A stretch of 64,000 nt of DNA, from the NCBI RefSeq assembly GCF_007655135.1, contig NC_045134.1:25878568-25942567 (forward strand). Reading direction: 5' to 3'. The stretch comes from Punica granatum. Taxonomy: Eukaryota; Streptophyta; Magnoliopsida; Myrtales; Lythraceae. Shown piece after piece: positions 75 through 62,822 of this stretch. The number at the start of each line of letters is the position of its first letter. Within the stretch, counting starts at the first letter, position 1. The position numbers and the translations under genes were made by a program. The notes beneath the pieces are model-generated. The model was not told the DNA's origin. It made no database searches and was given only the letters and a program-made list of their open reading frames with translations.

Positions 75-3000
75 CTACCGACGCAGCCTCTTCTTGTCTC
101 GCTTTTCTCTTTTCGGGAATCGTTCTTCGCTCTCTAATTGGGCTTCCATCAGCATGTGTGACCACAGCTCTTCAAACTGATCCTGGAAACCTTCCTGAAA
201 CCAGTCCTGAACCTCCGAGTGCAGTTCCATTGGGTTCTCCTCCCATGCATCTCTTAACCTCGCACAGCAGTCAATTCTATGAGCCTTCAACTTAAAGAGA
301 AGGTTCCCCACCCGTTTTTGACTCGATCCCTCCGGCCTCAGGATTGTAGCCGGAGGGGCCGCAATGAACTTCCGAGCGGATTTAAGGCACGGAAGCACCT
401 GACCTTCGAGCAAAGCATAGGCAAATACAGCCACTCGATGGGTCTCATCACTGATGGGCAAACTATGCAATGGCAGCTCCCACAGGAGGGGTCCAAAGGC
501 AGGTTTTACCCAAGAGAGTACTCGGTCTGTCCGAGAATCATAGAAAGGTTTCGGGTCCGTAAGAGGAGCAGAAAAGCTGCATAAAGAACCAGCATATTTA
601 ATGAGCCAATCAGACTTCACACTAGTCGCTCCATGCATATAAGGCCGCTTTGTTTGTAGGAGTTCGCTATAGACCAAGAACTCAGGAGCCGAGCTCGAGA
701 GAGACGACCAGCGATGGAGGAAGACTGTTTCTTTAACCATGCATGCCTGGTACCTCGTTGCACAGGCTCTGCTATCTCCTTCCGAAGACACTGAGATCCC
801 TCGGGTTCGCTTTGCAACCCGATCAGCCCAACCAGCACAAATAGCTCGCCCCAGTACCCCCTCTTCATTCAGCAGCAGCGGATGCCTATCGAACGAGACC
901 CTCCAAGCAAGCTCTACGTCTTCTGCAGTTCCATGGGTCCACGAAAATTCCTCTCCTTCCGAGCCTCTCTGAGAAAACACAAGTTGGAGCAACTGTTTCC
1001 TCAGTTTCGACATCTCTTCCATGGTTTTAAGGTGAAGAGCATTCTCATTGCAGAAATCCGCTTGACCTCTTGAGAGCTCGAAGCATTGGAGTGCGTAAGC
1101 TATTGTAAGAGCATCACTGGTGGGGTTATGAAATTTTGCACGAGACAATTTAGCAGTTTCTTTTAGCTTCTTCCTCCTCATTTTTTCCTCCTTGTCCATG
1201 GCCTTTTCCTTTTCCCCATCAATCAGTGCAGATCCCTCCTGCTTTTCCAATCCATCTCCTTGAGTCTGAGAATTTTCAATCGGCCTTAGAAACGGATTGG
1301 GCAAGCTTAAAGCTGCTGCTGCAGCGACTGCAAATCCTAGGACAAGGTTCGCTCGAGTATAACTGCCTACCGTCCTCATTATCTGAATAACAGTAAGGAG
1401 CATTCGAGAATGGCGAGGACTCATTGGGTAGTGGGCCATGGCTTTCCCTAAGGTTGTTAACTTCCCATTGCTATCAAGAGCTTCGAGAACCTTCAAGCAC
1501 TGTTCTGCTTCAAGCAGTGAAGTCTTCTCGGGAGTCGTTGGAAATGGGAAATTCGCTACCTGTAGCATGTACATAAACAAGATAATTAGTAATTTACATT
1601 TCAGTACTGAAAATCAAAATTGCCATAATGAGAGAAGAATGGTGTCCTGTGCACATACCTTATCAATACCCATTGATTTCATTAGGAGGACAACGCCGTC
1701 GACAGGTATCTTTGATATTTCTGCCAATGCGAAATCTGGAAATATGTTATGAAAGACTGCAGAAGAGTAGAGACGGTAACAGTGGCCTGGCCCAGTTCTT
1801 CCAGCTCTTCCTGCCCGTTGGGCAGCAGAAGCTTTACTGATCCACTTTATCTCATAGGTTTCCATCCCATTGGAAGAGTTGTAATTCTTCACCTTCTCCC
1901 TTCCAGTATCCACCACATACTTTATTCCCGGGATAGTTAAAGACGTTTCAGCCACATTGGTGGCAACAATCACAAGTCTCTCTCCTTCATTGACCTCCTG
2001 GAATACATGAAGCTGAGCTGCCGTTGGAAGCATAGCATAAAGGGGTAAGACCCGCATTGGACCATTGCTGGCACCGTTTTTGCCTCCTTTCTCCTCCAAT
2101 ATGTTAGGATTGACCGCATCTGGGACTTCCTGAAGAGCGACAGGATCTGTCTTATTTGCTGTGTTGGAATTGGAACTAGCTGAAACTTTCCCAGCTAAAG
2201 CGTCAAAAGCAGCTTTCAAAGAAGAAAGGGTTCCCTCATTGTTTAGAACTCCCGAAAGATTGCCATCTGCTGAAGTCTTATCATCCCCTGAAACACCATT
2301 AGCATCCACGGTCTCAAAATCACTCTCGGATTCTGAGTCATTCGGAACATCAGATTCATCTTCCCTGATATCATATTGATCGTCATCGTAAGAGCTGAAC
2401 CTATCGGTTTGCTGGTGGTTATCACCAATTTGATATGCTTCATCAATTTCATTCATATCGATTCCCTCCACCAAGTTCATTTCAGGGACTGCATCCGACT
2501 CATTTTCTGCATTTCTATGGTTGCTTCTCATAACCAGCTCCCTAGAAGCTTTACGAAGCTTCTGGCATAGGTACTCCACTTCCCTTTGCCCAGTTACAAA
2601 GACCAGCACTCCCCCTGGTGGAAGTCTCTTGTGAATTGAAATGACCTTCTTGTAAGCTTGTCCAATATAATCTACAATCTCTGTTCTCTTTGAGAAGTGT
2701 ATGGTAACTGGGTATTGTCTGGTAGGAACTTCAATTACTGGAGGAGGATAACGAAACAATCTTTTCCCAGAGCTGAAGTCTTCTACGCGCAAGGTAGCAC
2801 TCATCAGCACAAGTTTCAGTGGATAAATCTTACTTTCAGGGCTCACATTCTGTCCTAATAACAACATCTTCTGTTGCTTCTCAAACAGGTCCTGAGATCA
2901 TGAAGAGAATCATTTAGAGAATATGGGGAAATGAATGACATGAAAGTCCAAGTTCTTGAGGCTAGAAATAACAAAATCCTTAAAATTTACCTGGCGGAGT

Positions 3001-10485: not shown

Positions 10486-12879
10486 TCAATTCGCGGTGCA
10501 TTCCCGGAGGTAAGGGTGGGTGTGATCCACATATCTCCACCAGAGAGGCTTGTACCTGCTAATCCCGATCTCAAGCCATGGCTTTAGATTCCCGTTGAAG
10601 TGAATCACTGCTGCGCTATCAATGAGACGGTCGTCGATGTTCACATCATGGCCCAACCCCAGCACATGCCACCTGCGATCGAGCGGCTCAGTCAGACCAT
10701 AGAAGGCCAGAAGGCCCACAGGCAGGGTCCCCGATCTCCACACTGTCCGGTCGGAATTCAATTCTAGCCAGTACAAATATTGTGCGGTGATGTCGGCCCT
10801 CCTCCACTCAGCCAGATTGAAGATGTTCATGCCAAAGGCCCACCCGCAGGCCTGTGGATCAATCTTTGAGCTGACAACCGGGTTCGAGAAGTTGATGTAC
10901 TTGTAGTACCGGTGGAATGATTCCAAGCAGGTTTCCACAGCCCCGTTAACATTCCCGTGCAGATCCAAGGAAAAGAGAAGGCTCAGGTCCTTCTGAACAA
11001 CAACATCGTCATCAAGAAAGACAACCTTCTCAAGCTCAGGGTAGATCTCTGCTGTATAAAACCGTAGGTGGTTGAGCAACGAAGTATCCTTTGGGTCCTG
11101 CAGCTTAGGCAGTTCATCTTTGACATCTCCAGGACCAACTACAGGAGAGAAAGAAGCGTTGACCCATGAGAGCTCTCGCACATTCCGAACTTCGATGGTG
11201 GATCCACTGAAATTGTTGCCATTGAACCAAGACAGCATTGCTCCATAATTTATACTATCAGTAACAATATGGAACACAAGATCCTTCGGGCTGTTAGAGT
11301 TAGAAACCGTTGAGTTAACGACTACAGATGCGGCGAGGACATTATCTGAGAACAAGCAGAAGTGATGAAGACTATTGTCCACGAGACGAGCAGAATTTGA
11401 ACTCTGTCTCCCGTTCTTGATTCTCTTCAATGGTGGGTCCTTCAGCCAATCGGCTATAAGTTTCAGATTGAGGCAATGGAGACTTCTGGGGACTGATTCG
11501 GCCACAAGTCGACCAGATACTATGGACTGAACTGTGGACGAACTGGCACGTTGCTCGAGAGCTTGCATGTGGGATTTCATGGTTACTATTGTGGTAGCAA
11601 TATCATAGTGCAAGTCTTGTGCCTTGAGAAAAAGCGAAGACAGGCTTTTCATTAACGATTCTGCTTCGGCTAATGAGATGATCTCTCCTCTCATGGCGGC
11701 TTTGGAGAGCAGGAGCTGGGATGATCGGATCTTTGAACTCAGTTCCCATGCTAAGTGAAGGTCGTTATGCTCCTTTGCTATGACGACATAAGCCTTGGCA
11801 AGTATAATTTGCTCGGACAACTGCTGAGAAAATGATGTAGCACTCACTACTTCGTCTGTGAATTTTGAACTACTGTGGGCTTCTCTTCGTTTACTCACAC
11901 TATTCTCCTGAAAACAATGAGAAATCGAGTGTCAAGTTAATCTTCAAACGAACAACTTAACGTAAAGATCCAATCTGCAATCATATCAGAAGTCAATCGA
12001 TGGTCAAGACATTTCTTCATAATAGCAACCTAAGGGACTGTAGATACATATGTACCTACCAGTTTGCCTAAACCACAGTGAACTCATAAAATCATATTAG
12101 TACCACCATTGTAGAAAACGGCAACCAAACTTGTTGAGAAACTCAAATCTCTCGTATAAAACATGCAGGACGTGACGTATAATAGCTCAAATGGAGAAAC
12201 AAACATTTTAAACTGAGGACAAATGGACCGATCATTTTAAAGTTTTGGTTGAGGCTCAAAATAAGTAAAAATCAAAGAAAGCAAAGATTCTGAAAGCTTA
12301 AAGCTGAATCCAAATTGACCATTTCCTCCATACAGCAAAGGCAATTAGCTCTTATCCATCTGGGTTGTGTAAGAATCAACACACTTATACTTATTGGCAA
12401 TGTAAAGATTCCCAGAACCGGAACACAGTATAGTCATCTATCTATCGCCGATAATGCCCGTATGCCGATCCCTAAATGGTGCTTGCATTCAAAATGTCAT
12501 TTCAAACGTTAAACACGACCACTTACATCTATGAAAGAAATGCAGAGCTACACGCGCAGCTCCATCAGGAGGCAGCTGAGCTGCCGTAATCAATCCAAGA
12601 GCAATGAAATTCTTAATTATAAACTGACAAAGACACTGAATAAGAACAAACCCAGACAGCTAAAATGAGAAAATAAGCCCAAAAAAAAAAATGTTGTTCC
12701 TTTTTCCTCGGTCATACTCTTACCATTACAAGCTGGGCGGCACGACCTTCGTGGTGATTGTGATGAACCACAAACAGTATACACCCAGCGACGAAGAACA
12801 GCCCAAGAAGCGCCCAGATCCACCGCGTCGACCAGCGCCTCCGGCCAGACCGCCGGAAGTCGGCCGCTCGCCGCCGCAT
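10486..12879 (-). CDS. GAUT11: Galacturonosyltransferase, GT8 family, GAUT11-like
   Basis: Two exons: 12879-12724 (52 codons) and 11907-10486 (473 codons plus stop), joined in phase 0, about 525 aa. The N-terminus is a short Arg-rich tail followed by one membrane anchor (about aa 20-38, WIWALLGLFFVAGCILFVV), the type II Golgi topology of GAUTs. A stem region containing HLAWELSSKIRSSQLLLSKA comes next, then the GT8 domain with HLRFY, the metal-binding LDDDVVVQKDL (aspartates near aa 351-353), ACGWAFGMN and the C-terminal HFNGNLKPW. The closest family member from memory is Arabidopsis GAUT11. The segment just before the LLNHLRFY motif is about 15 residues shorter than in that protein. The family transfers galacturonic acid from UDP-GalA in homogalacturonan (pectin) synthesis; the exact subgroup is an inference. 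Confidence 0.93.
11908..12723 (-). other. GAUT11 intron 1
   Basis: Single 816-bp intron with a GTAAGA donor at 12723 and a TTTTCAG acceptor at 11908-11914. It splits the coding region just after the membrane anchor. No embedded element was recognised. Confidence 0.85.
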
Positions 12880-30899: not shown

Positions 30900-31261
30900 G
30901 GGCAAATTACAAAAAAAAACTCAATTTTTGTAAAATGTCTCAGTTTTGTCCTAAATTTTGTTTTGTAACAAAAAAAACCATAAATTTTCTAAAATGTCTC
31001 AAAAATGACATCCGTTATAACTTCCGTCAATTTTTGCCTACGTGTGACCTACGTGGACTGTTAAAGGGACCCACTAGCCTACGTGTGACCTACGTTGACT
31101 GTTAAAGGGACCCACCATCAGCAGCAAAAATTGACGGAAGTTATAACGGATGTCATTTTTGAGACATTTTAGAAAACTTATGGTTTTTTTGGTTACAAAA
31201 CAAAATATATGACAAAATTGAGACATTTTACAAAACTTGGATTTTTTTTTGTAATTTACCC
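30900..31261. mobile_element. Mutator-like fold-back MITE (362 bp)
   Basis: The inverted ends run from GGGCAAATTACAAAAAAA to TTTTTTTGTAATTTACCC, and most of the element is self-complementary (ATTTTGTAAAATGTCTCA and GACGGAAGTTATAACGGATG on the arms). A perfect 9-bp duplication TATATAAAT flanks it (30891-30899, 31262-31270). Near the centre a segment GCCTACGTGTGACCTACGT with GGGACCCAC is tandemly duplicated. Short open frames here are by-products of the palindrome. Confidence 0.9.
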
Positions 31262-44154: not shown

Positions 44155-44538
44155 CCGTAAGTTTATCTAACTAACTTATCTAGATCACAGTTGTTGAGTG
44201 GTATAGGTCCTATTGGGAATCCTATTGTTGAGTGTCTGCCCCCCGCTATATATGGAAATAAGGGTCTAAATGAAAAGGTTGTATCTTGATAATATTATTG
44301 AATATGATTATTAAGATTCATCTGGTTGAGATGTGATTGGACAAATAGGGACGAGTTCCTCCTCCCGATTATATACTGTTGAGCTTGTCTAACTAGCTTG
44401 GCCAGACTCGGCCTTCTCAGATCATGTGTTAATCACAACCATCGAGTGCTACTGATAATCAATGTGCCCAACCTCAACTACCCAAAATAAGTATCCGGAT
44501 ATAGTTATTGAGATTCATCTGGCCGGGATTGAACAAAC
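44155..44538 (+). repeat. Diverged tandem duplication hosting the composite retroelement
   Basis: Two copies about 220-230 bp apart share TCTAACTA.CTT, ATCACA..TGAGTG-like and ATTGAGATTCATCTGG blocks. The second copy ends in GGGATTGAACAAAC, matching GTGATTGGACAAATAG of the first. The retroelement inserted at CAAAC of copy 2. Confidence 0.55.
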
Positions 44539-44997
44539 TGATGCGGCAGAAGAGGTGTCAAATTGGTATTTCGAGAAAAATAAGTTATGATGGCCCTATC
44601 TCGAGGAAAACAACTTCCGGAGCAAAACTCATAACTTTTGGCTATGAAAACACGAGATTTTGGCCGAATTCCATCGTTTAATGCCTCAAACGGGCATTTT
44701 TTTAATGTTATTTGGGCATTTTTGTAATTTTAGGAAAATTTTATATCTTTCGTGCAATTTAAGCGCTTTTAATTCTATTTAAGCATTGTAAAATCCTAGG
44801 GTTAAGAGAGTTAATTTCGAATTTATCAATAAAGTTGTGGAGCTACCGTGCTCTTTCTCCCAATCTTGGATTTGTTTTCGAGTTTGATGCCTATTCTTGG
44901 TATTCGTAAAATCAACAGATGATAGAAGGTCGTAGTTCCGATATTCGTACGCGAATCAACGGGTCTGTAATAAGTTACTCACGTGTACGCTGCGCCA
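44539..44997 (+). repeat. LTR 1 of the composite element
   Basis: 459 bp, TGATGCGGCAGAAGAGG to TGCGCCA. It contains GCATTGTAAAA..CCTAGGG and AATAAAGTTGTGGAGCT, a probable transcription-end region. Very similar to LTR2 and LTR3. Confidence 0.88.
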
Positions 44998-44999
44998 GT

Positions 45000-45011
45000 T
45001 GGTATCAAAGC
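45000..45011 (+). promoter_or_regulatory. Primer-binding site (initiator-Met tRNA type)
   Basis: TGGTATCAAAGC lies three bases after LTR1. It differs at one position from the canonical TGGTATCAGAGC complement of the plant initiator methionine tRNA 3' end. Confidence 0.85.
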
Positions 45012-45034: not shown

Positions 45035-45823
45035 ATGCCGCCCAAGAGAAGGGATCGTGTGGACGATGTTCTTGAGTGTGACAACCTGCGACATCTGGAA
45101 CAGAGGATGGAGCAAATGGATCAAAGGATTAATCGTATGTTGGGGCAGCTAACACAGCAGATGGCTGTACTTATAGGGAACCAGAATCGAGAAAAACCTA
45201 ATCCGAACCTTAACCCTAACCCTAATCTTGAGCAAGAGGAATCTTGCGAGGAGTCAGAGGGAGAGAATGATTCTGTCGAGTATGATTCCTATTATGAAAG
45301 AGACATGAATATATTTATCGAAAAAGGTTCGTCTGACGACGCATTTTTTTTAACGGGAGGCAATGGAGAGCCCGAGTTTGACGAGGATGATGAGGGAGAT
45401 GACAAGGCTTATGACGAGAATTGGAAATTCAACGAATTTGAGGGGACTGATGTGAGTCTCTTTGTTTCTGCAGAGTATGATGAGGACGATAAGGAGGTTG
45501 ATGCGGTCTGGGAGGCCATCGATAAGAGGATGGACTCGCAAAGAAAAGATAGGAGGGAGGCGATGTTGAAGCAGGAAATTGAGAAGTACTATGCCTCGAA
45601 TCAACAGATGAGGACGAGGATGTCAGATGTCTCTATCGAACCAATCACTGTAGCAGAGTGTTTTGAGTCGGTATTTTTTCCAATCATCCGTTCTGAAGTA
45701 TTAGCTGACATCGGTTTCCGGTCAAGTATGGAAGATGTGTATGTTTGTGTGAATAATTTTATCTCTAGACTCATAAGGCGAATTCTCTCCACCCAGGGGA
45801 GAATGATGCGGCAGAAGAGGTGA
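45035..45823 (+). CDS. Chimeric retroelement ORF: Gag N-terminus + PRP6-like + PP2C-like fragments
   Basis: A single uninterrupted 262-codon frame. Residues 1-70 (MPPKRRDRVDDVLE, RHLEQRMEQMDQRINRML) are a plant gypsy Gag N-terminus. Residues about 85-118 (IEKGSSDDAFFL..GEPEF) correspond to the linker before the protease in the second unit. Residues about 119-190 (GDDKAYDENWKFNEFEG, EYDEDDKEVDAVWEAIDKRM, KDRREAMLKQEIEKY) match the N-terminal region of plant PRP6/STA1, a U4/U6.U5 tri-snRNP splicing factor. Residues about 195-243 (ECFESVFFPIIRS..DIGFRSSMEDVYVCV) resemble the N-terminus of a PP2C phosphatase. The last 19 residues are element sequence leading into the polypurine tract. No introns remain, which fits capture through RNA. 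Host-family matches are from memory. The 3' end runs past the LTR2 start at 45804. Confidence 0.75.
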   Translation: MPPKRRDRVDDVLECDNLRHLEQRMEQMDQRINRMLGQLTQQMAVLIGNQNREKPNPNLNPNPNLEQEESCEESEGENDSVEYDSYYERDMNIFIEKGSSDDAFFLTGGNGEPEFDEDDEGDDKAYDENWKFNEFEGTDVSLFVSAEYDEDDKEVDAVWEAIDKRMDSQRKDRREAMLKQEIEKYYASNQQMRTRMSDVSIEPITVAECFESVFFPIIRSEVLADIGFRSSMEDVYVCVNNFISRLIRRILSTQGRMMRQKR

Positions 45824-46262
45824 CAAATTGGTATTTCGATAAAAATAGATTATGATGACCCTGTCTCGAGGAAAACAACCTCCAGGGCAAAACTTACAGC
45901 GTTTGGCTGTGAAAAGACGAGATTTTGGCCAAATTCCATCGTTTAGGGCCTCAAACGGGCATTTTTATGTTATTTGGACATTTTTGCAATTTTAGAAAAA
46001 ATTTATATCTTTCGTGCAATTTAGGCACTTTTAATTCTATTTAAGCATTGTAAAACCCTAGGGTTAAGAGAGTTAATTTCAAATTTATCAATAAAGTTGT
46101 GGAGCTATCGTGCTCTTTCTCCCAATCTCGGATTTGTTTTCGAGTTTGATACTTATTCTTGGTATTCGTAGAATCAACAGATGATAGAAGGTCGTAGTTC
46201 CGGTATTCGTGCGCGAATCAACGGGTCTGCGATAGGTTACTCGCGTGTACGCTGCTGCGTCA
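45804..46262 (+). repeat. LTR 2 of the composite element
   Basis: 459 bp, TGATGCGGCAGAAGAGG to GCTGCGTCA. It is preceded by the polypurine tract CCAGGGGAGAA. Only four bases (GTTA) separate it from LTR3. Confidence 0.88.
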
Positions 46263-46266
46263 GTTA

Positions 46267-46717
46267 TGATGTGACAGAAGAGGTGACAAATTGGTATTTC
46301 GAGAAAAATAGGTTATGATGACCCTATCTCGAGGAAAACAGCCTCCGGAGCAAAACTCACACCATTGGCTGTGAAAAGACGAGATTTTGGCCGAATTGCA
46401 TCGTTTAGGGCCTCAAACAAGCATTTTTATGTTATTTGGGCATTTTTACAATCTTAGGAAAAGTTTATATCTTTTATGCAATTTATGCGCTTTTAATTCT
46501 ATTTAAGCATTGTAAAACCCTAGGGTTAAGAGAGTTAATTTCGAATTTATCAATAAGTGGAGCTACCGTGCTCTTTCTCCCAATCTCGGATTTGTTTTCG
46601 AGTTTGATACTTATTCTTAGTATTCGTAGAATCAACAGATGATAGAAGGTCGTAGTTCCGGTATTCGTGCGCGAATCAACGGGTCTGTGATAGGTTCCTC
46701 ACGTGTACGCTACGTCA
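46267..46717 (+). repeat. LTR 3 of the composite element
   Basis: 451 bp, TGATGTGACAGAAGAGG to CTACGTCA, with small internal deletions. It is followed by GTTGGATCG, where a primer-binding site is expected, but TATCAAAGC and the first Gag codons are missing. Confidence 0.88.
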
Positions 46718-46729
46718 GTTGGATCGTAT

Positions 46730-47635
46730 AATGAAGCAACTAATACAACAGATGGTTACACTTATGGAGAATCAGAATTTGAGAAACCCTAATCCGAATT
46801 CTGACCTTAATTGAGAGGAAACGGAAGAGGAGTCAAAAGGGGGGAATTATTTTGCTGATATTCCACGAAGACAGCAAAGGGGTCCAATTGAGGAAGACAG
46901 GCAGCGATGGGAGACGGGCATTCGGACCGATATTCCTGAATTCCAAGGGGGCTTACAGCCAGAAGAGTTTCTAGATTGGCTCGCGACGGTAGAATAGGTT
47001 TTGGAGTTCAAGGGGGTACTTGAGACTAAGCGGGTACAGCTTGTGGCGACTCGGTTGCGTGGTAGGGCGATGGCTTGATGGCAATAGGTGAAGCGTACCT
47101 GTAGCAGGATGGGTAAACGTAAGATCACGTCGTGGGAGAAGATGAAGAAAAAGAAGAGGGCTGCCTTTCTGCCCTATAACTTTCAGAGGATCATGTACCA
47201 ACGCCTCCAGAACTTGAGGCAGGGCAGTAGGTCGGTGGATGATTACACCAACGAGTTCTACCAGTTGGTTGCTCGTAACGAGCTTCAGGAAACCGAGGAT
47301 CAGCTGGTGGCGAGATATATTGGCGGGCTAAGAGTGTAGTTACAGGACACGATTAATTTGTTCAACCCTGTTAACGTGTTTTCCGCCCATCAGAGGGCCT
47401 TGATAGTTGAAAGACAACAGAAGCGAGTCGGCAGCGGGATGTTCAGTGGAGGTGTCACTGTTGCAGGAACTGGTGGGGTCGTACGGGCTGGTGGTGTTAG
47501 TACTGTCCCAGGGCATCCGTCGAGGCCTGCTAGCATTGGTCCGAGCGATAGTGGAGCGAAGTACTTCAAGTGTGGAGAGCCCGGACACTGACAGTCTGAG
47601 TGCAGAAAGGGAGAAAAGAGAGCGATGTTTATCAA
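46730..47635 (+). pseudogene. Decayed gypsy gag with broken zinc knuckle
   Basis: The frame reads in pieces: DRQRWETGIRTDIPEFQGGL, EEFLDWLATVE, then a stop, [35 protein letters not shown] and INLFNPVNVFSAHQRAL. It ends with a CCHC knuckle, YFKCGEPGH, in which a stop codon interrupts the run before the last Cys. Several in-frame stops show it is no longer functional. The order is that of plant Ty3/gypsy Gag. Confidence 0.8.
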
Positions 47636-48512
47636 AGATGATCAGTTTGATGACGCAATTTATGTAAAGAGAGGTGATGGAGAGGCCGAGTTCGAAGAGG
47701 AGGAGGAGATTGTGACAGGAGATGGGGTGCCCAACCTGGTGGTGAGGAGATCTTGTATGACTCCGAGAGCTGCGGACGAAAACTGGCTGCGTAACAATAT
47801 CTTCCAATCCACCTGCACCATCGGGAATAAAGTCTGTCATTTCATGATAGACTCGGGCAGTTACGAAAATATTGTGTCTGTTAAAGCCGTGCAGAAGTTG
47901 GGCCTGCGAGTTGAGCCACATCCCAAACCGTATAAGCTGGCATGACTGAAGAAATGAGGTGAAGTGAGTGTGTCAAAGCGCGCGCTGGTTACTTTCTCTA
48001 TTGGCTCTCGGTATAGGGACTCTGTGTGGTGTGATGTTGTCATGATGGACGCGTGTCACTTGTTGTTGGGAAGGCCCTGGCAGTTTGACAGGAGTATGAG
48101 CCATGACAGGAGGACCAATAAATACAGCTTCACGCATAAGAGGTTAAAGATTGTACTGGTTCTGAACAGAGACAGGGACACCAACGAGCCCCGACCTGCG
48201 AATCTGGTTTCCGCAGCCAACTTGATGTCCCTTGTTCGGTTTCAGGAGGAGTTGTATGATGCAGAGTTAATGTTTGCTCTCGTAGGTGGGGAGGTTGTAG
48301 AGGAAAGACATATATCTTGTGAGTCCTTACCGATCTTGAAAGAATTTCAGGATGTCTTTCCTGAGAAACTGCCAGATGGTCTACCACCTTTCCGAGACAT
48401 TCAACATCATATCAACTTTCAACTTGAAGCATCCCTTCCGAACATACCACACTACAGGATGAGCCCGGCTGAACATGAAGAGTTGAGGACCGCAAAAGAT
48501 GCTCGGAGAGAC
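47625..48512 (+). pseudogene. Decayed gypsy pol: retropepsin and truncated start of reverse transcriptase
   Basis: After a linker (FIKDDQFDDAIYVKRGDGEA), the aspartic protease core appears as CHFMIDSGSYENIVSVKAVQ (47833-47895) and then LLLGRPWQFDR. A stop and a frame step occur near 47943. The stretch LKEFQDVFPEKLPDGLPP and HYRMSPAEHEELR are the canonical entry to a gypsy RT. The RT then stops matching at about 48500, where host-like sequence begins. No catalytic YVDD, RNase H or integrase remains. Confidence 0.8.
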
Positions 48513-48750
48513 TTCAAAGACATGAATGACCCGAATGTGGTCTCCTACACTACTCTAATATGTTGATACCTTAAGAGAGGGATGCTTGAGGATGGGGTTG
48601 GTGTCTTCCGAGCAATGCCCAAGAAGAATACCGTGTCATGGAATGCGGTAATCGCAGGGTGCAGGCAAATGGGCTGCGACGAGGATGAAGTTAACTTTTC
48701 CGTAGAGGTGATGAGAGAAGGGTGGATCCCTGACAAGTACTTTGACCTCG
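48513..48750 (+). pseudogene. Captured pentatricopeptide-repeat (PPR) fragment in the retroelement
   Basis: The reading frame gives DMNDPNVVSYTTLIC, a stop, then YLKRGMLEDGVGVFRAMPKK and NTVSWNAVIAGCRQMG, followed by VEVMREGWIPD. This is the spacing of PLS-type plant PPR repeats (VVSYTTLI-GY, A-VF-MP-KN-VSWNA-I-G). The stop replaces a glycine codon, a single-base change. The fragment sits where the RT should continue. Confidence 0.75.
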
Positions 48751-48960
48751 AGACTATTCTCCAAGCCAAGATTCAGCCACTAACTGTTGTTCCTGGAAAG
48801 TCATTCATCGGTTTCTTCTACCCTGATGGGATGGATGAAGAGGGTTTCGATTATATAGTGGAGATTGTTGCGGCAGCAATTGAAGAAGCGGAAATAGCTG
48901 CAGGTACCTTGGAATTTGTAATTCCTCAGGCAACAAGTCTGAAGCTCTCTGGACTCCTAG
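48751..48960 (+). other. Unrecognised host-like coding fragment in the retroelement
   Basis: Open frame continuing from the PPR piece: TILQAKIQPLTVVPGKSFIG, FFYPDGMDEEGFDYIVEIVA, then AAIEEAEIAAGTLEF. It is neither PPR nor any gypsy domain I know. The composition suggests a real cytosolic protein segment. It ends in the shared 3' segment (RWRILSTQRRMMRQK) before the polypurine tract. Confidence 0.5.
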
Positions 48961-48999
48961 GGCAAATTCGATGGCGAATTCTCTCCACCCAGAGGAGAA

Positions 49000-49457
49000 T
49001 GATGCGGCAGAAGACCTGGCAAGTCGGTACTTGAAGAAAAATAGGTTCTGACGACCTTATTTCGAATGAAATGGCATATGGAGCAAAACTTACGGCATTT
49101 GGCCATGAAATTTCGATATTTTAGGCGAATTCCATCGTTTAGTGTCTCAAACAGATAATTTTATGTTAAGTATGGTGTTTTTGCAATTTTAGGAGAGTTT
49201 ATTTCTTTGTATGCAATTTAGGTTTTCTTAAATCCTATTTAAATTTTGTGTAAGCCCTAGGGCTGAAAGAGTCGTCTTTTGGATTATTAATAAAAGTTGG
49301 AGCTTTTGTGCTCTTTGCCCAATTCTTGGATTGGATCCAAGTTGGATGTCAATTACCTAGGTATTCGAAAAATCAATAGGGATTGAAGGTTGTAGTTCCG
49401 GTATTCGTGCGCGAATCAACGGGTCTGCGACAGGTTCCTCGCGTATACGCTGCGTCA
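49000..49457 (+). repeat. LTR 4 of the composite element
   Basis: 458 bp, TGATGCGGCAGAAGACC to TGCGTCA. It is clearly more diverged from LTRs 1-3 than those are from each other, yet is followed by CAAAC, the same five bases that precede LTR1. Confidence 0.88.
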
Positions 49458-49519
49458 CAAACCAAGTATGAAAGAAAAAACTGCTTCTCCGTTTGGTCGT
49501 TAGAGAATTAAAGAGAGAC

Positions 49520-53516: not shown

Positions 53517-54680
53517 GGAAAATTACGTCAATGATACAAAATATTTTAAATTGTACGCGAACAGTACAAAATCTTTTTTTATAATAATTTGATACAAAAC
53601 GTATCAAATTGTTTCAATCTAGTACAATCCGTCAATTTCTGTCAACGCCATTAAGAATTTCCGACGTGACACGTGACGTGGCAAGTCTTATGATACGTGA
53701 TTGAAAACTTTTAGCATGATATAATAAATGAGTACAAAACTTTATTAAGATGTAATAAATGGGTACAAAACTTTATTAAGATGTAACGAAATGGTACAAA
53801 AAGTTTTGTATGATGTAATAAATTTATACAAATTGCGGAACAAAGGGCAACTACAACTAATTAAAATAATAAAAGGGGAGATCCGTATTGAATGGTGCTG
53901 CGGGATCTATGCATATCCGACGATAGGAAGACTCGTGTTACGATAATATGGAGTCATATTATCATGAGCGAAAAAAATATCTGGTAGTATGAATTTGCAT
54001 CATAAAATTTTGGTCCCTCTAGATTTCGAGAGAAGTACATAAGTTCGAAATGAAATATTGGAAGAGAAAATAGAAGGAAGATCTTTCATTCCAAAAATTT
54101 CTGACATGGCACGTAACGATCCTGTCAAACATTTTTGGAATGAAAGATCTTCCCTTTATTTTCTCTTCCAATATTTCTTATGCACTTCTCTCGAAATTCA
54201 AAGGGACCAAAATTTATGATGCAAATTCATACTACCAGATATTTTTTCGCTCATGGTAATATGACTCCATATTATCGTAATACGGATTTTCCCATCGTTG
54301 GCAAGCACCATTCAATACGGATCTCTCCTTTTATTATTTTAATTAGGTGTATCAATTTGTTACATCATATAAAACTTTTTGTACCATTTCGTTACATCTT
54401 AATAAAGTTATGTACCAATTTGTTACATCTTAATAAAGTTTTGTACAAATTTGTTACATCTTAATAAGGTTATGTACCTATTTGTTACATCATGCTAAAA
54501 TTTTCAGTTACGTGTCATAAGACTTGCCACGTCAAAAATTACTAACGGCGTCGACGAAAATTGACGAATTGTACTTGATTGAAACAATTTGATACGTTTT
54601 GTATCAAATTTTACAAAAAAAAAAATTGTAACGTCCGCGTTATAAGTTAAAAGGTTTTGTATCATTGAAGTAATTTTTCC
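53517..54680. mobile_element. 1.16-kb near-perfect fold-back element with 10-bp target duplication
   Basis: Two arms of about 560 bp face each other around a loop of about 35 bases centred near 54115. The ends are GGAAAATTAC at the left and GTAATTTTTCC at the right. Flanks are the identical 10-mer ACCTAAAGCT (53507-53516, 54681-54690), the size used by Mutator-like transposases. Arm pairs include AATATTGGAAGAGAAAATA with its complement, TGAATTTGCATCATAAA with TTTATGATGCAAATTCA, and repeated TTACATCTTAATAAAGTT units near the outer part. No transposase frame. Confidence 0.92.
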
Positions 54681-60676: not shown

Positions 60677-62822
60677 ATGGAATCTTCTTGGATTTATGTC
60701 TCAGAAGGGAAGGGATTCGGGTCGAACAGTGAATCCATATCGCCTCCGGATTCGCTTTCGAGGAGCAGGAACCCGTTCCCCAATGGGGAACTGGTAAAGA
60801 CTCCTTCCTGTTTTGGGAATCACATTCTGATCTCCGGAGGTCAGCCGCCAGCTGACATGGGTCAACGTTGTTTCGGGCCAGAACTGGGGATTCAGCAGAT
60901 GATCGCGAAACAGTTGCCCTCTGATTCGGGATCCGATGTTCTAACTGGTAGATTTGGCGGCGGGAGAGATATGACCCCGATCATGGCTTCCCTGAATGCC
61001 TTCTCTGAGGAAGACGACTCCACCTCGAAGTTCTCCAGTTCTGTGGTGGACTCCAACAGCCGAGACTCATCCCTCATTGATCTGAAACTGGAGAGATTCA
61101 ACGATATTAGGGATCACCACAGCTCAAAGTTCTCACGAAGAGGACCGGTCCTTTCTTATCCCGAATCTTCGGCTCCTTCCAAGAGAGGTCGAGCAGGAGG
61201 GATAAGTTCTCAGACAGCTTATTGCCAAGTTTACGGGTGTAACAAGGACCTCAGCTCATCAAAGGACTACCACAAGCGGCATAAAGTCTGTGAGGCCCAC
61301 TCGAAGACTGCTAAGGTGATCGTGAACGGCATCGAGCAGAGATTTTGCCAGCAATGCAGTAGGTTTGTATAGATTCCTTCTGTCGTCGACTTCGGATTCA
61401 TGAATTGATTTGTATCCTTACAGTGATTGAATTTATTTTTAGCAGAAATAAATAAGGCCTCTGGTGGTTTTTATGATTGTATGCGTCTTGCAGATTTCAT
61501 TTGCTTGCGGAGTTTGATGATGGAAAGAGAAGCTGCCGAAAACGTCTCGCAGGCCACAACGAACGTCGCCGGAAGCCTCAAGTTGGTGCTCATTCTGGTA
61601 GAAGCGGAAGATTGCTCCAACCTTTCGGTGAGCCCCTTATCTCTTTCTTTAGTTCTCTCATGTCCGCCGAATAATATTCCATAGGATAAAGTCATCTGTG
61701 GTCGAATTTTGTGCACGACACTGTTTGTTGACATTTTAAATTACTACTCTACAGTTATCAGAATACAACCCGAATCACAGCATCAGTCGTTGAAAATGAG
61801 AGTGCTTTTCTAATTCTTCTCGCTAGTATTTAATCTTTGGGTGCCAGATTCAGACCGTCGTGTTTTCTGCAGAAGCGTTTATTTTGTATATGTTTGCCTC
61901 CTATTATTCCGTTCAGCATTTCGAGATTTTGCTTATTAGTTCTCTTTAACTGGGAAATTTCTATTGCCCTTTGAATTCTACATCTCCAGTTTATTCATGC
62001 TTTTGATTCAAGTTATGTCTGTTTATCATGCTGACATGCTTTGAGTTCATATTTGCAGGCAATAGGTTCCAAGGGAATGCCTTTGCACCAACCTCCTTTA
62101 TATGCCAGGACATTTTGCCCAATGGAACCAACTTGAATCCCGAGAAATATAGCACCCATGACTTATACGGGCGAATCAAACTCGAGGACAGAGCAGATTA
62201 TGGTGGCCCTTTAACAGCCATTCCTCTCCCAAGCAGGCATCTACATTCTAAATCCCCCATTTCACCTTACACTAATTTGGAAAAACAGTTCCCTTTTGCC
62301 CACGAAACTGGAGTCAGCTCTTCCACATCAACGGGAATCTTCAGCGGGCAAATCTCTGCCTCGCGATCCTTCTTTCAAGACTCTACATTGGGGAGTGAGG
62401 ACTTCTCGGCTTTCAACTCAGCATCAGCCCTTCAGGGATTCTCAGAATCGGGTTGTGCTCTCTCTCTTCTGTCATCCCCATCTCAAAATTCTTCTTCCTA
62501 CAGCTTGAACCAGGTTTCGAATAAGATCATGAGTGAGGTACCGAATAAGCTGCGTACTTCCTCGGCGATAAGTTCTGGAGAAGGAAACCAAACAAGTCCG
62601 ATTCTAATCTCGGGTTGTGCTGATACAGTTAATTTTGAGATTTCTGAAGGGATTCTTCGAGCACCGGAGGTTTTACACGAGAAAGGCAAACTTTCCTGTG
62701 ATGATGGTCCTACAATTAGTCTGAGTCAGTTATCTTCTCAGCTCCATCGTGTAGAGCATCAGAGACGGTCCATGAAGGTGAAGCGGGAAGATGATCCTTT
62801 CTTTTGTACTAGGCTCACTTGA
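60677..62822 (+). CDS. SPL6: SBP-box transcription factor, SPL6-like
   Basis: Three exons: 60677-61362, 61494-61627, 62059-62822 (686, 134, 764 bp), 527 aa. The SBP domain spans about aa 181-258 and crosses intron 1, as in other SPL genes. Its first zinc finger reads [20 protein letters not shown] and VCEAH; its second is [20 protein letters not shown]. The nuclear signal is [18 protein letters not shown]. The N-terminus [14 protein letters not shown] and the domain sequence fit the SPL6 subgroup best. SBP proteins bind GTAC-core motifs. Members of this family promote phase change and flowering, partly by activating AP1/FUL-type genes; SPL6 itself is also linked to plant immunity. Exon 3 carries a miR156 site. 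The first ATG of the exon was chosen because it matches the family's N-terminus. Confidence 0.93.
62455..62474 (+). promoter_or_regulatory. miR156/157 target site in SPL6 exon 3
   Basis: The 20 bases GTGCTCTCTCTCTTCTGTCA are the canonical plant miR156 target, with full complementarity to the usual miR156 core. They encode the conserved ALSLLSS peptide (about aa 407-413). This is expected in miR156-regulated SPLs outside the SPL7 type. Confidence 0.95.

Follow-up and report, generated by a model that had tools for sequence, protein, structure and literature searches.

A chimeric Gag–STA1–PP2C reading frame within a small non-autonomous LTR retrotransposon of pomegranate, probably one copy of an amplified family

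The stretch of DNA considered here, referred to as the window, comprises 64,000 nucleotides of pomegranate (Punica granatum; assembly GCF_007655135.1, contig NC_045134.1, forward-strand positions 25,878,568 to 25,942,567). Towards its right-hand part it harbors an open reading frame (ORF) of 262 codons in which the start of a retroviral-type Gag protein is followed by pieces of two host proteins, the splicing factor STA1/PRP6 and the phosphatase PP2C 22. The ORF is housed between two long terminal repeats (LTRs), together termed unit 1, whose features are given below in positions of the window; P-numbers denote individual proteins in the comparisons.

44539 to 44997, plus strand: LTR1 (TG...CA), 459 bp, the 5' LTR of the chimera unit, 91.7% identical to LTR2.
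45000 to 45011, plus strand: primer binding site TGGTATCAAAGC, with 1 match in the window and 0.03 expected by shuffling.
45035 to 45823, plus strand: chimeric ORF of Punica granatum, ATG at 45035, stop at 45821-45823 inside LTR2, 262 amino acids.
45035 to 45277, plus strand: Gag N-terminus of type I, amino acids 1-81, 62.8% to Punica Gag P0061 over 78 amino acids.
45278 to 45385, plus strand: acidic linker, amino acids 82-117, whose counterpart in ordinary relatives lies between zinc finger and protease.
45386 to 45601, plus strand: captured STA1/PRP6 piece, amino acids 118-189, equivalent to STA1 residues about 160-232 (Pfam, PDB and protein matches).
45608 to 45760, plus strand: captured PP2C 22 piece, amino acids 192-242, equivalent to PP2C residues 55-105, after two codons (QQ) at the join.
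45761 to 45803, plus strand: 3' end of the internal region of the element, read in a shifted frame and including the purine tract 45795-45803.
45804 to 46262, plus strand: LTR2, 459 bp, the 3' LTR of the chimera unit, from the LTR comparison.

A sequence-only reading, made earlier by a model from the letters of the window, had proposed a 262-codon frame without stops, running from a Gag N-terminus through an acidic linker into PRP6-like and PP2C-like segments and ending in element sequence beside a polypurine tract. This architecture holds throughout, from the Gag match to P0061 and the linker, which precedes the protease in ordinary relatives, to an end that lies past the purine tract and inside the second LTR. 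The PRP6/STA1 segment is recognised by the Pfam family PRP1_N at residues 115-199 (E=2.1e-13) and by PRP6 chains in PDB (6qx9, E=2.8e-13; 3jcr, hPrp6, E=4e-13). The Pfam match covers only positions 37-120 of a profile of 144, and the tetratricopeptide-like repeats are absent from the ORF. A padded search returned 66 proteins at E<=0.001 among 90 candidates. Two of these are Punica chimeras (P0092, P0093), and the other 64, which have a listed PRP1_N domain, show 71-88% identity; STA1 of Punica itself did not appear by name among those 90 candidates. The PP2C piece, which Pfam does not match, is identical to Punica PP2C 22 (P0060) at 44 of 51 residues, and in 14/14 copies tested it is nearer by bit score to this protein than to those of Euphorbia and Populus or to P0062. 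As it spans residues 55-105 of 393, the catalytic domain is incomplete.

Chance similarity of the host pieces is ruled out by these E-values together with a join that recurs between copies. That the two segments might be normal parts of a gypsy Gag-Pol, one outcome that would have overturned the sequence-only reading, is likewise ruled out, as neither STA1 nor PP2C is matched in five ordinary relatives (P0080, P0082, P0087, P0089, P0090), all of which have the linker between zinc finger and protease.

Unit 1 carries the marks of an LTR retrotransposon, namely paired TG...CA LTRs, a purine tract and a primer binding site, which we take from its complementarity to be of the tRNA-iMet type and which lies 23 bases before the ATG. 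Pol is absent between LTR1 and LTR2, which characterises a non-autonomous element, and the ORF is without capsid and nucleocapsid between Gag N-terminus and linker. The internal region measures about 0.8 kb, giving 1.7 kb from LTR to LTR. Large retrotransposon derivatives (LARDs) have an internal region of several kb, and unit 1 falls short of this size. Between its ends it carries fragments of host genes that are unrelated to one another, as gene-transducing elements of the Bs1 type do. Gypsy-type domains occur only in relatives (RVT_1 in P0089, E=5.6e-25; Retrotrans_gag in P0092, E=2.2e-8; none in unit 1), and the Ty3/gypsy label of the lineage is our assumption from such domains rather than from a reverse-transcriptase tree. 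With these features combined, it is highly probable that the ORF makes up the interior of a single member of a non-autonomous LTR family of gypsy type, carrying STA1 and PP2C 22 pieces and decaying neutrally.

The fusion is not confined to the window. Of 287 candidates found with the whole ORF, 71 reached E<=0.01, namely the window's own protein, 55 named Punica granatum and 15 others that are STA1-like, PP2C-like or unnamed. When 92 proteins (P0001-P0090, P0092 and P0093) were compared by BLAST with five yardsticks, both host pieces were present in 38. PP2C 22 is entered at residue 55 in 37 of these, the 38th (P0035) entering at 154, and the PRP6–PP2C join reads ASN-QQ-MRTRMSDVS with few changes, so that the same mosaic structure and one shared join are found in many annotated copies. 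Entry at the same residue and a constant join therefore point, at the level of protein sequence, to one founding STA1–PP2C event which was amplified and spread as a family. Further copies, which the sequence-only reading had suggested looking for, are thus present; the chimera it described stands, its status as a one-off does not, since the fusion recurs in these 38 proteins, 20 of them CRG98 gene models. By name the remainder comprise 16 CDL15 models, the window's own protein and one other (P0019). Some loci may be counted twice, because the CDL15 and CRG98 models are taken as two assemblies. The CRG98 models P0017 and P0040 are neighbours. P0092, also CRG98, equals the window ORF at 198/198 residues before running into Gag and protease like those of a second unit, described below, and most likely represents the same locus in another cultivar, judging from this identity. 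For annotation, the consequence is a warning that fragments of this retroelement family account for many of the pomegranate models under the name 'PRP1 splicing factor N-terminal domain-containing protein'. As a separate observation, P0093 (Punica CRG98_037285) has its cargo copy between endonuclease (PF03372) and reverse-transcriptase (PF00078) parts, as if the element had landed in a long interspersed nuclear element or annotation had joined models.

Relatives carry other host genes, including CHD3/PICKLE, RRM and DEUBAD sequences, at the same place. When only the Gag N-terminus and linker served as query, 30 of 388 candidates reached E<=0.001, all from Punica and including the query P0057. 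Some of these are further STA1/PP2C copies or ordinary Gags. The others include CHD3/PICKLE domains (P0081, E=2.4e-7; P0083, E=6.3e-7), an RRM protein that follows a STA1 piece (P0057, E=1.5e-15) and, in P0084, a lipoyl ligase domain (E=1.8e-11). The DEUBAD assignment of P0063, P0075, P0076 and P0086 comes from source names, Pfam matching neither P0063 nor P0076, and P0072-P0074, P0078 and P0079 contain pieces without assigned identity. Element sequence flanks the cargo on both sides in P0057, P0063, P0079 and P0083. P0072-P0076, P0078, P0081, P0084 and P0086 are without such flanking and therefore may be annotation-fused models, and a kinase (P0028) and a transporter (P0053) are doubtful as cargos on the same grounds.

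Unit 1 forms the left half of an array of four LTRs, the further features of which are:

44534 to 44538, no strand: CAAAC, directly left of LTR1, with the same five bases right of LTR4 (49458-49462).
46267 to 46717, plus strand: LTR3, four bases (GTTA, 46263-46266) after LTR2.
46718 to 48999, plus strand: second unit, with decayed gag, protease and reverse-transcriptase start, then a PPR piece, a piece without assigned identity and the same 3' tail.
49000 to 49457, plus strand: LTR4, about 25% different from LTR1-3 (Kimura two-parameter distance, K2P, 0.306-0.318).

Unit 2 (within 46267-49457) is a second gene-carrying element, sharing its 3' tail with unit 1. Its PPR piece is matched in PDB (E=1.6e-27) and by Pfam PPR at only 18 bits, below cut-off, and a further piece of 70 residues gave no match. 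The CAAAC pair is a candidate target-site duplication of the whole array. End-to-end joining of two cDNAs was considered as the origin of the array; the outer CAAAC and the LTR2–GTTA–LTR3 join favour it, but the divergence between LTR4 and LTR3 is much too great for this, LTR4 standing about 0.31 from each of LTR1-3, which differ mutually by K2P 0.073-0.090. The array appears to lie in a gene-bearing region, because three long ORFs, judged by eye, are presumably a DEAH helicase (75-2867, minus strand), a glycosyltransferase (10486-11898, minus strand) and an SBP-box factor (60677-62822, plus strand). Long inverted repeats are also present in the window at 30900-31261 (138 nt arms, 93%) and 53569-54627 (120 and 106 nt arms, nested), and are possibly foldback elements.

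The position of the capture is informative with regard to mechanism. On the STA1 side, represented by Trapa, the junction reads EEEEDDEGED, and none of the 1018 ten-residue segments of that protein is more acidic; this agrees with the earlier claim that the junction (EFDEDDEGDD in the ORF) falls in an acidic stretch alike in linker and PRP6. The linkers of four ordinary relatives rank 3rd to 8th in acidity among the segments of their proteins (best of five offsets). In DNA, the similarity of the unit 1 linker to that of unit 2 runs up to GAGGATGATGAG and then soon departs, and the STA1 junction fits a template switch at purine-rich microhomology. The acidic junction and the DNA similarity thus favour the template switching at microhomology proposed earlier; the switch between RNA templates itself, together with a supply of proteins in trans, we infer.

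In the proposed course of events, an ancestor element would have lost capsid, nucleocapsid and pol, and its reverse transcription probably switched template onto co-packaged host mRNAs. STA1/PRP6 would have entered at the acidic, purine-rich stretch common to STA1 and the Gag-Pol linker, and a PP2C 22 piece, residues 55 to about 255, would have been gained next, with a switch back near the 3' purine tract. The founder may then have spread with proteins supplied in trans by full elements. Most of the PP2C piece would have been deleted from later copies, and Gag exchange would have given rise to copies with another type of N-terminus; both changes are present in the window copy. This suggests a testable rule, in which captures occur where the acidic linker of the element meets an acidic stretch of a host mRNA. 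Entry of the host pieces at the DNA level instead, through insertion, read-through of a neighbouring gene or recombination, is improbable. The four-LTR array shows that DNA rearrangement may occur here, but two pieces of two unrelated genes lie in sense orientation inside the element ends, the first at an acidic stretch, and relatives hold other host genes at the same place.

The order in which the forms arose can be approached from their extents. Gag in the copies passes from residue about 93 to about 191 of P0080, itself a shortened Gag, and the same gap is present in P0014, P0021, P0031, P0038, P0039, P0042 and others; from this jump it follows that capsid and nucleocapsid were lost. The PP2C piece extends to residue 255 in three copies (in P0035 only from 154), to 210 in one and to 105 in 16. 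In the long copies P0017 and P0019, the stretch missing from the short copies is bounded on either side by the residues NF, a pattern such as a jump between short repeats would leave. A tree rooted on the donors comprises 43 copies, of which 37 belong to the 38 with both pieces and six have PRP6 only. At its base lie P0017, P0019 and P0035, all long and with type II Gag, together with P0040, which is long and has no Gag, and the short type II copy P0020. The window copy combines type I Gag with a short PP2C piece. It is therefore likely, though weakly supported, that the long PP2C form preceded the short one and that the window copy is derived and internally deleted. Gag types I and II require 5 changes on the tree, of which well-supported branches force only 2 to 3, and the count of Gag exchanges is not firm.

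With regard to age, LTR1 and LTR2 differ at 38/456 sites (K2P 0.090), 32 of the 38 differences being transitions. Under neutral substitution at 0.045 per site the ORF stayed stop-free in 34.0% of 4000 draws, and in 24.4% when G/C sites mutated twice as often; only substitutions were simulated, and indels would lower both values. The open frame says little in any case, because it was picked for being open. Rates were compared in ten of the 38 copies, selected for the completeness of both pieces and leaving out P0093 (cargo of P0010) and P0007 (PRP6 gap). Differences from the majority amount to 85/730 residues in PRP6 (11.6%) and 62/510 in PP2C (12.2%), with a bootstrap interval of the difference from -0.029 to 0.020. 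Host STA1 over the same stretch has a mean identity of 0.923 to Trapa among 64 STA1-like proteins including Trapa (lowest 0.575), and on these sequences the cargo appears to be without the constraint of its donor. The majority cargo differs from the donors at 5/124 positions, and the pieces were therefore near-perfect when taken. The sequence-only reading had offered 'recent origin or selection', and neither is borne out. The LTR divergence speaks against a recent origin, which was rejected, although LTR1 and LTR2 may not have been partners originally. For PRP6, selection was dropped at 0.116 versus 0.122 in the ten complete copies.

Several points weigh against the reading of a neutrally decaying copy of an amplified, captured fusion. 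Gene annotation, from which the copies were taken as proteins, is biased towards open frames, and no target-site duplication flanks unit 1 alone (CAAAC left, GTTAT right). The PRP6–PP2C join is not acidic. Only 4/41 inner branches of the tree are well supported, its bootstrap not being settled. Furthermore, pairwise identity is 0.86 for PRP6 versus 0.75 for PP2C in nine type I copies and 0.80 versus 0.64 in eleven of type II, where neutral draws lead to equal values for all segments. Against the donors, 13 copies give the opposite direction (PRP6 0.785, PP2C 0.860), probably because the STA1 yardstick is that of Trapa, not Punica.

The slower appearance of PRP6 in the pairwise comparison would suit a host gene born from the element, in which a Gag–PRP6–PP2C protein is made and kept by selection. 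So would the 262-codon frame, open too in many annotated copies, and the expression of LARDs in peel and aril of pomegranate (PMC5999313), reported without mention of the STA1–PP2C family. Such a gene is nevertheless very unlikely, given that a quarter to a third of neutral draws remain stop-free at the LTR distance on substitutions only, that both pieces change at equal rates per copy, that most of the PP2C enzyme is missing and that annotation favours open copies. Most likely, the host pieces have no function of their own in the window copy, which is in neutral decay. Very improbable, finally, is the notion that the acidic linker of this lineage is a site of repeated capture from host mRNAs, with two genes of the RNA-directed DNA methylation pathway, STA1 and PICKLE, among the cargos kept, and that the amplified STA1 piece weakens or evades the host's transposon silencing as camouflage, decoy or source of small interfering RNAs against the host gene: PICKLE, whose domains P0081 and P0083 carry, belongs to that pathway (PMC5452414) and camouflage by captured genes is described in a review (PMC13317346), but the link is drawn after the fact, P0081 has element sequence on one side only and the cargo has no sign of constraint.

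Among known systems, the closest is Bs1 of maize, an LTR element with pieces of three host genes, in which several unrelated host-gene pieces inside an LTR element likewise make up a chimeric gene (PMC13317346). Its donors are different, and the pomegranate fusion, which occurs in 38 proteins, exists in a long and a short form and behind either of two types of Gag. LTR elements with captured host genes are also reported from rice (672 such genes) and sorghum (1,343) (PMC3726574). Those figures concern full-length elements genome-wide, whereas here one lineage holds several cargos at one place. The enrichment of chromatin genes among the sorghum captures (PMC3726574) is not used as support, because the terms include the elements' own functions. 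Pomegranate LARDs, a recent radiation of non-autonomous LTR elements (PMC5999313), resemble unit 1 in being non-autonomous and, as for unit 1, in the absence of pol; they differ in that the section on them mentions no host-gene cargo and unit 1 is only 1.7 kb from LTR to LTR. No report of the STA1–PP2C family was found in the literature searched, which is not proof of absence. Host-gene capture by LTR elements is thus already known, and what is new in comparison is an amplified founder fusion with later deletions and Gag exchange within one species.
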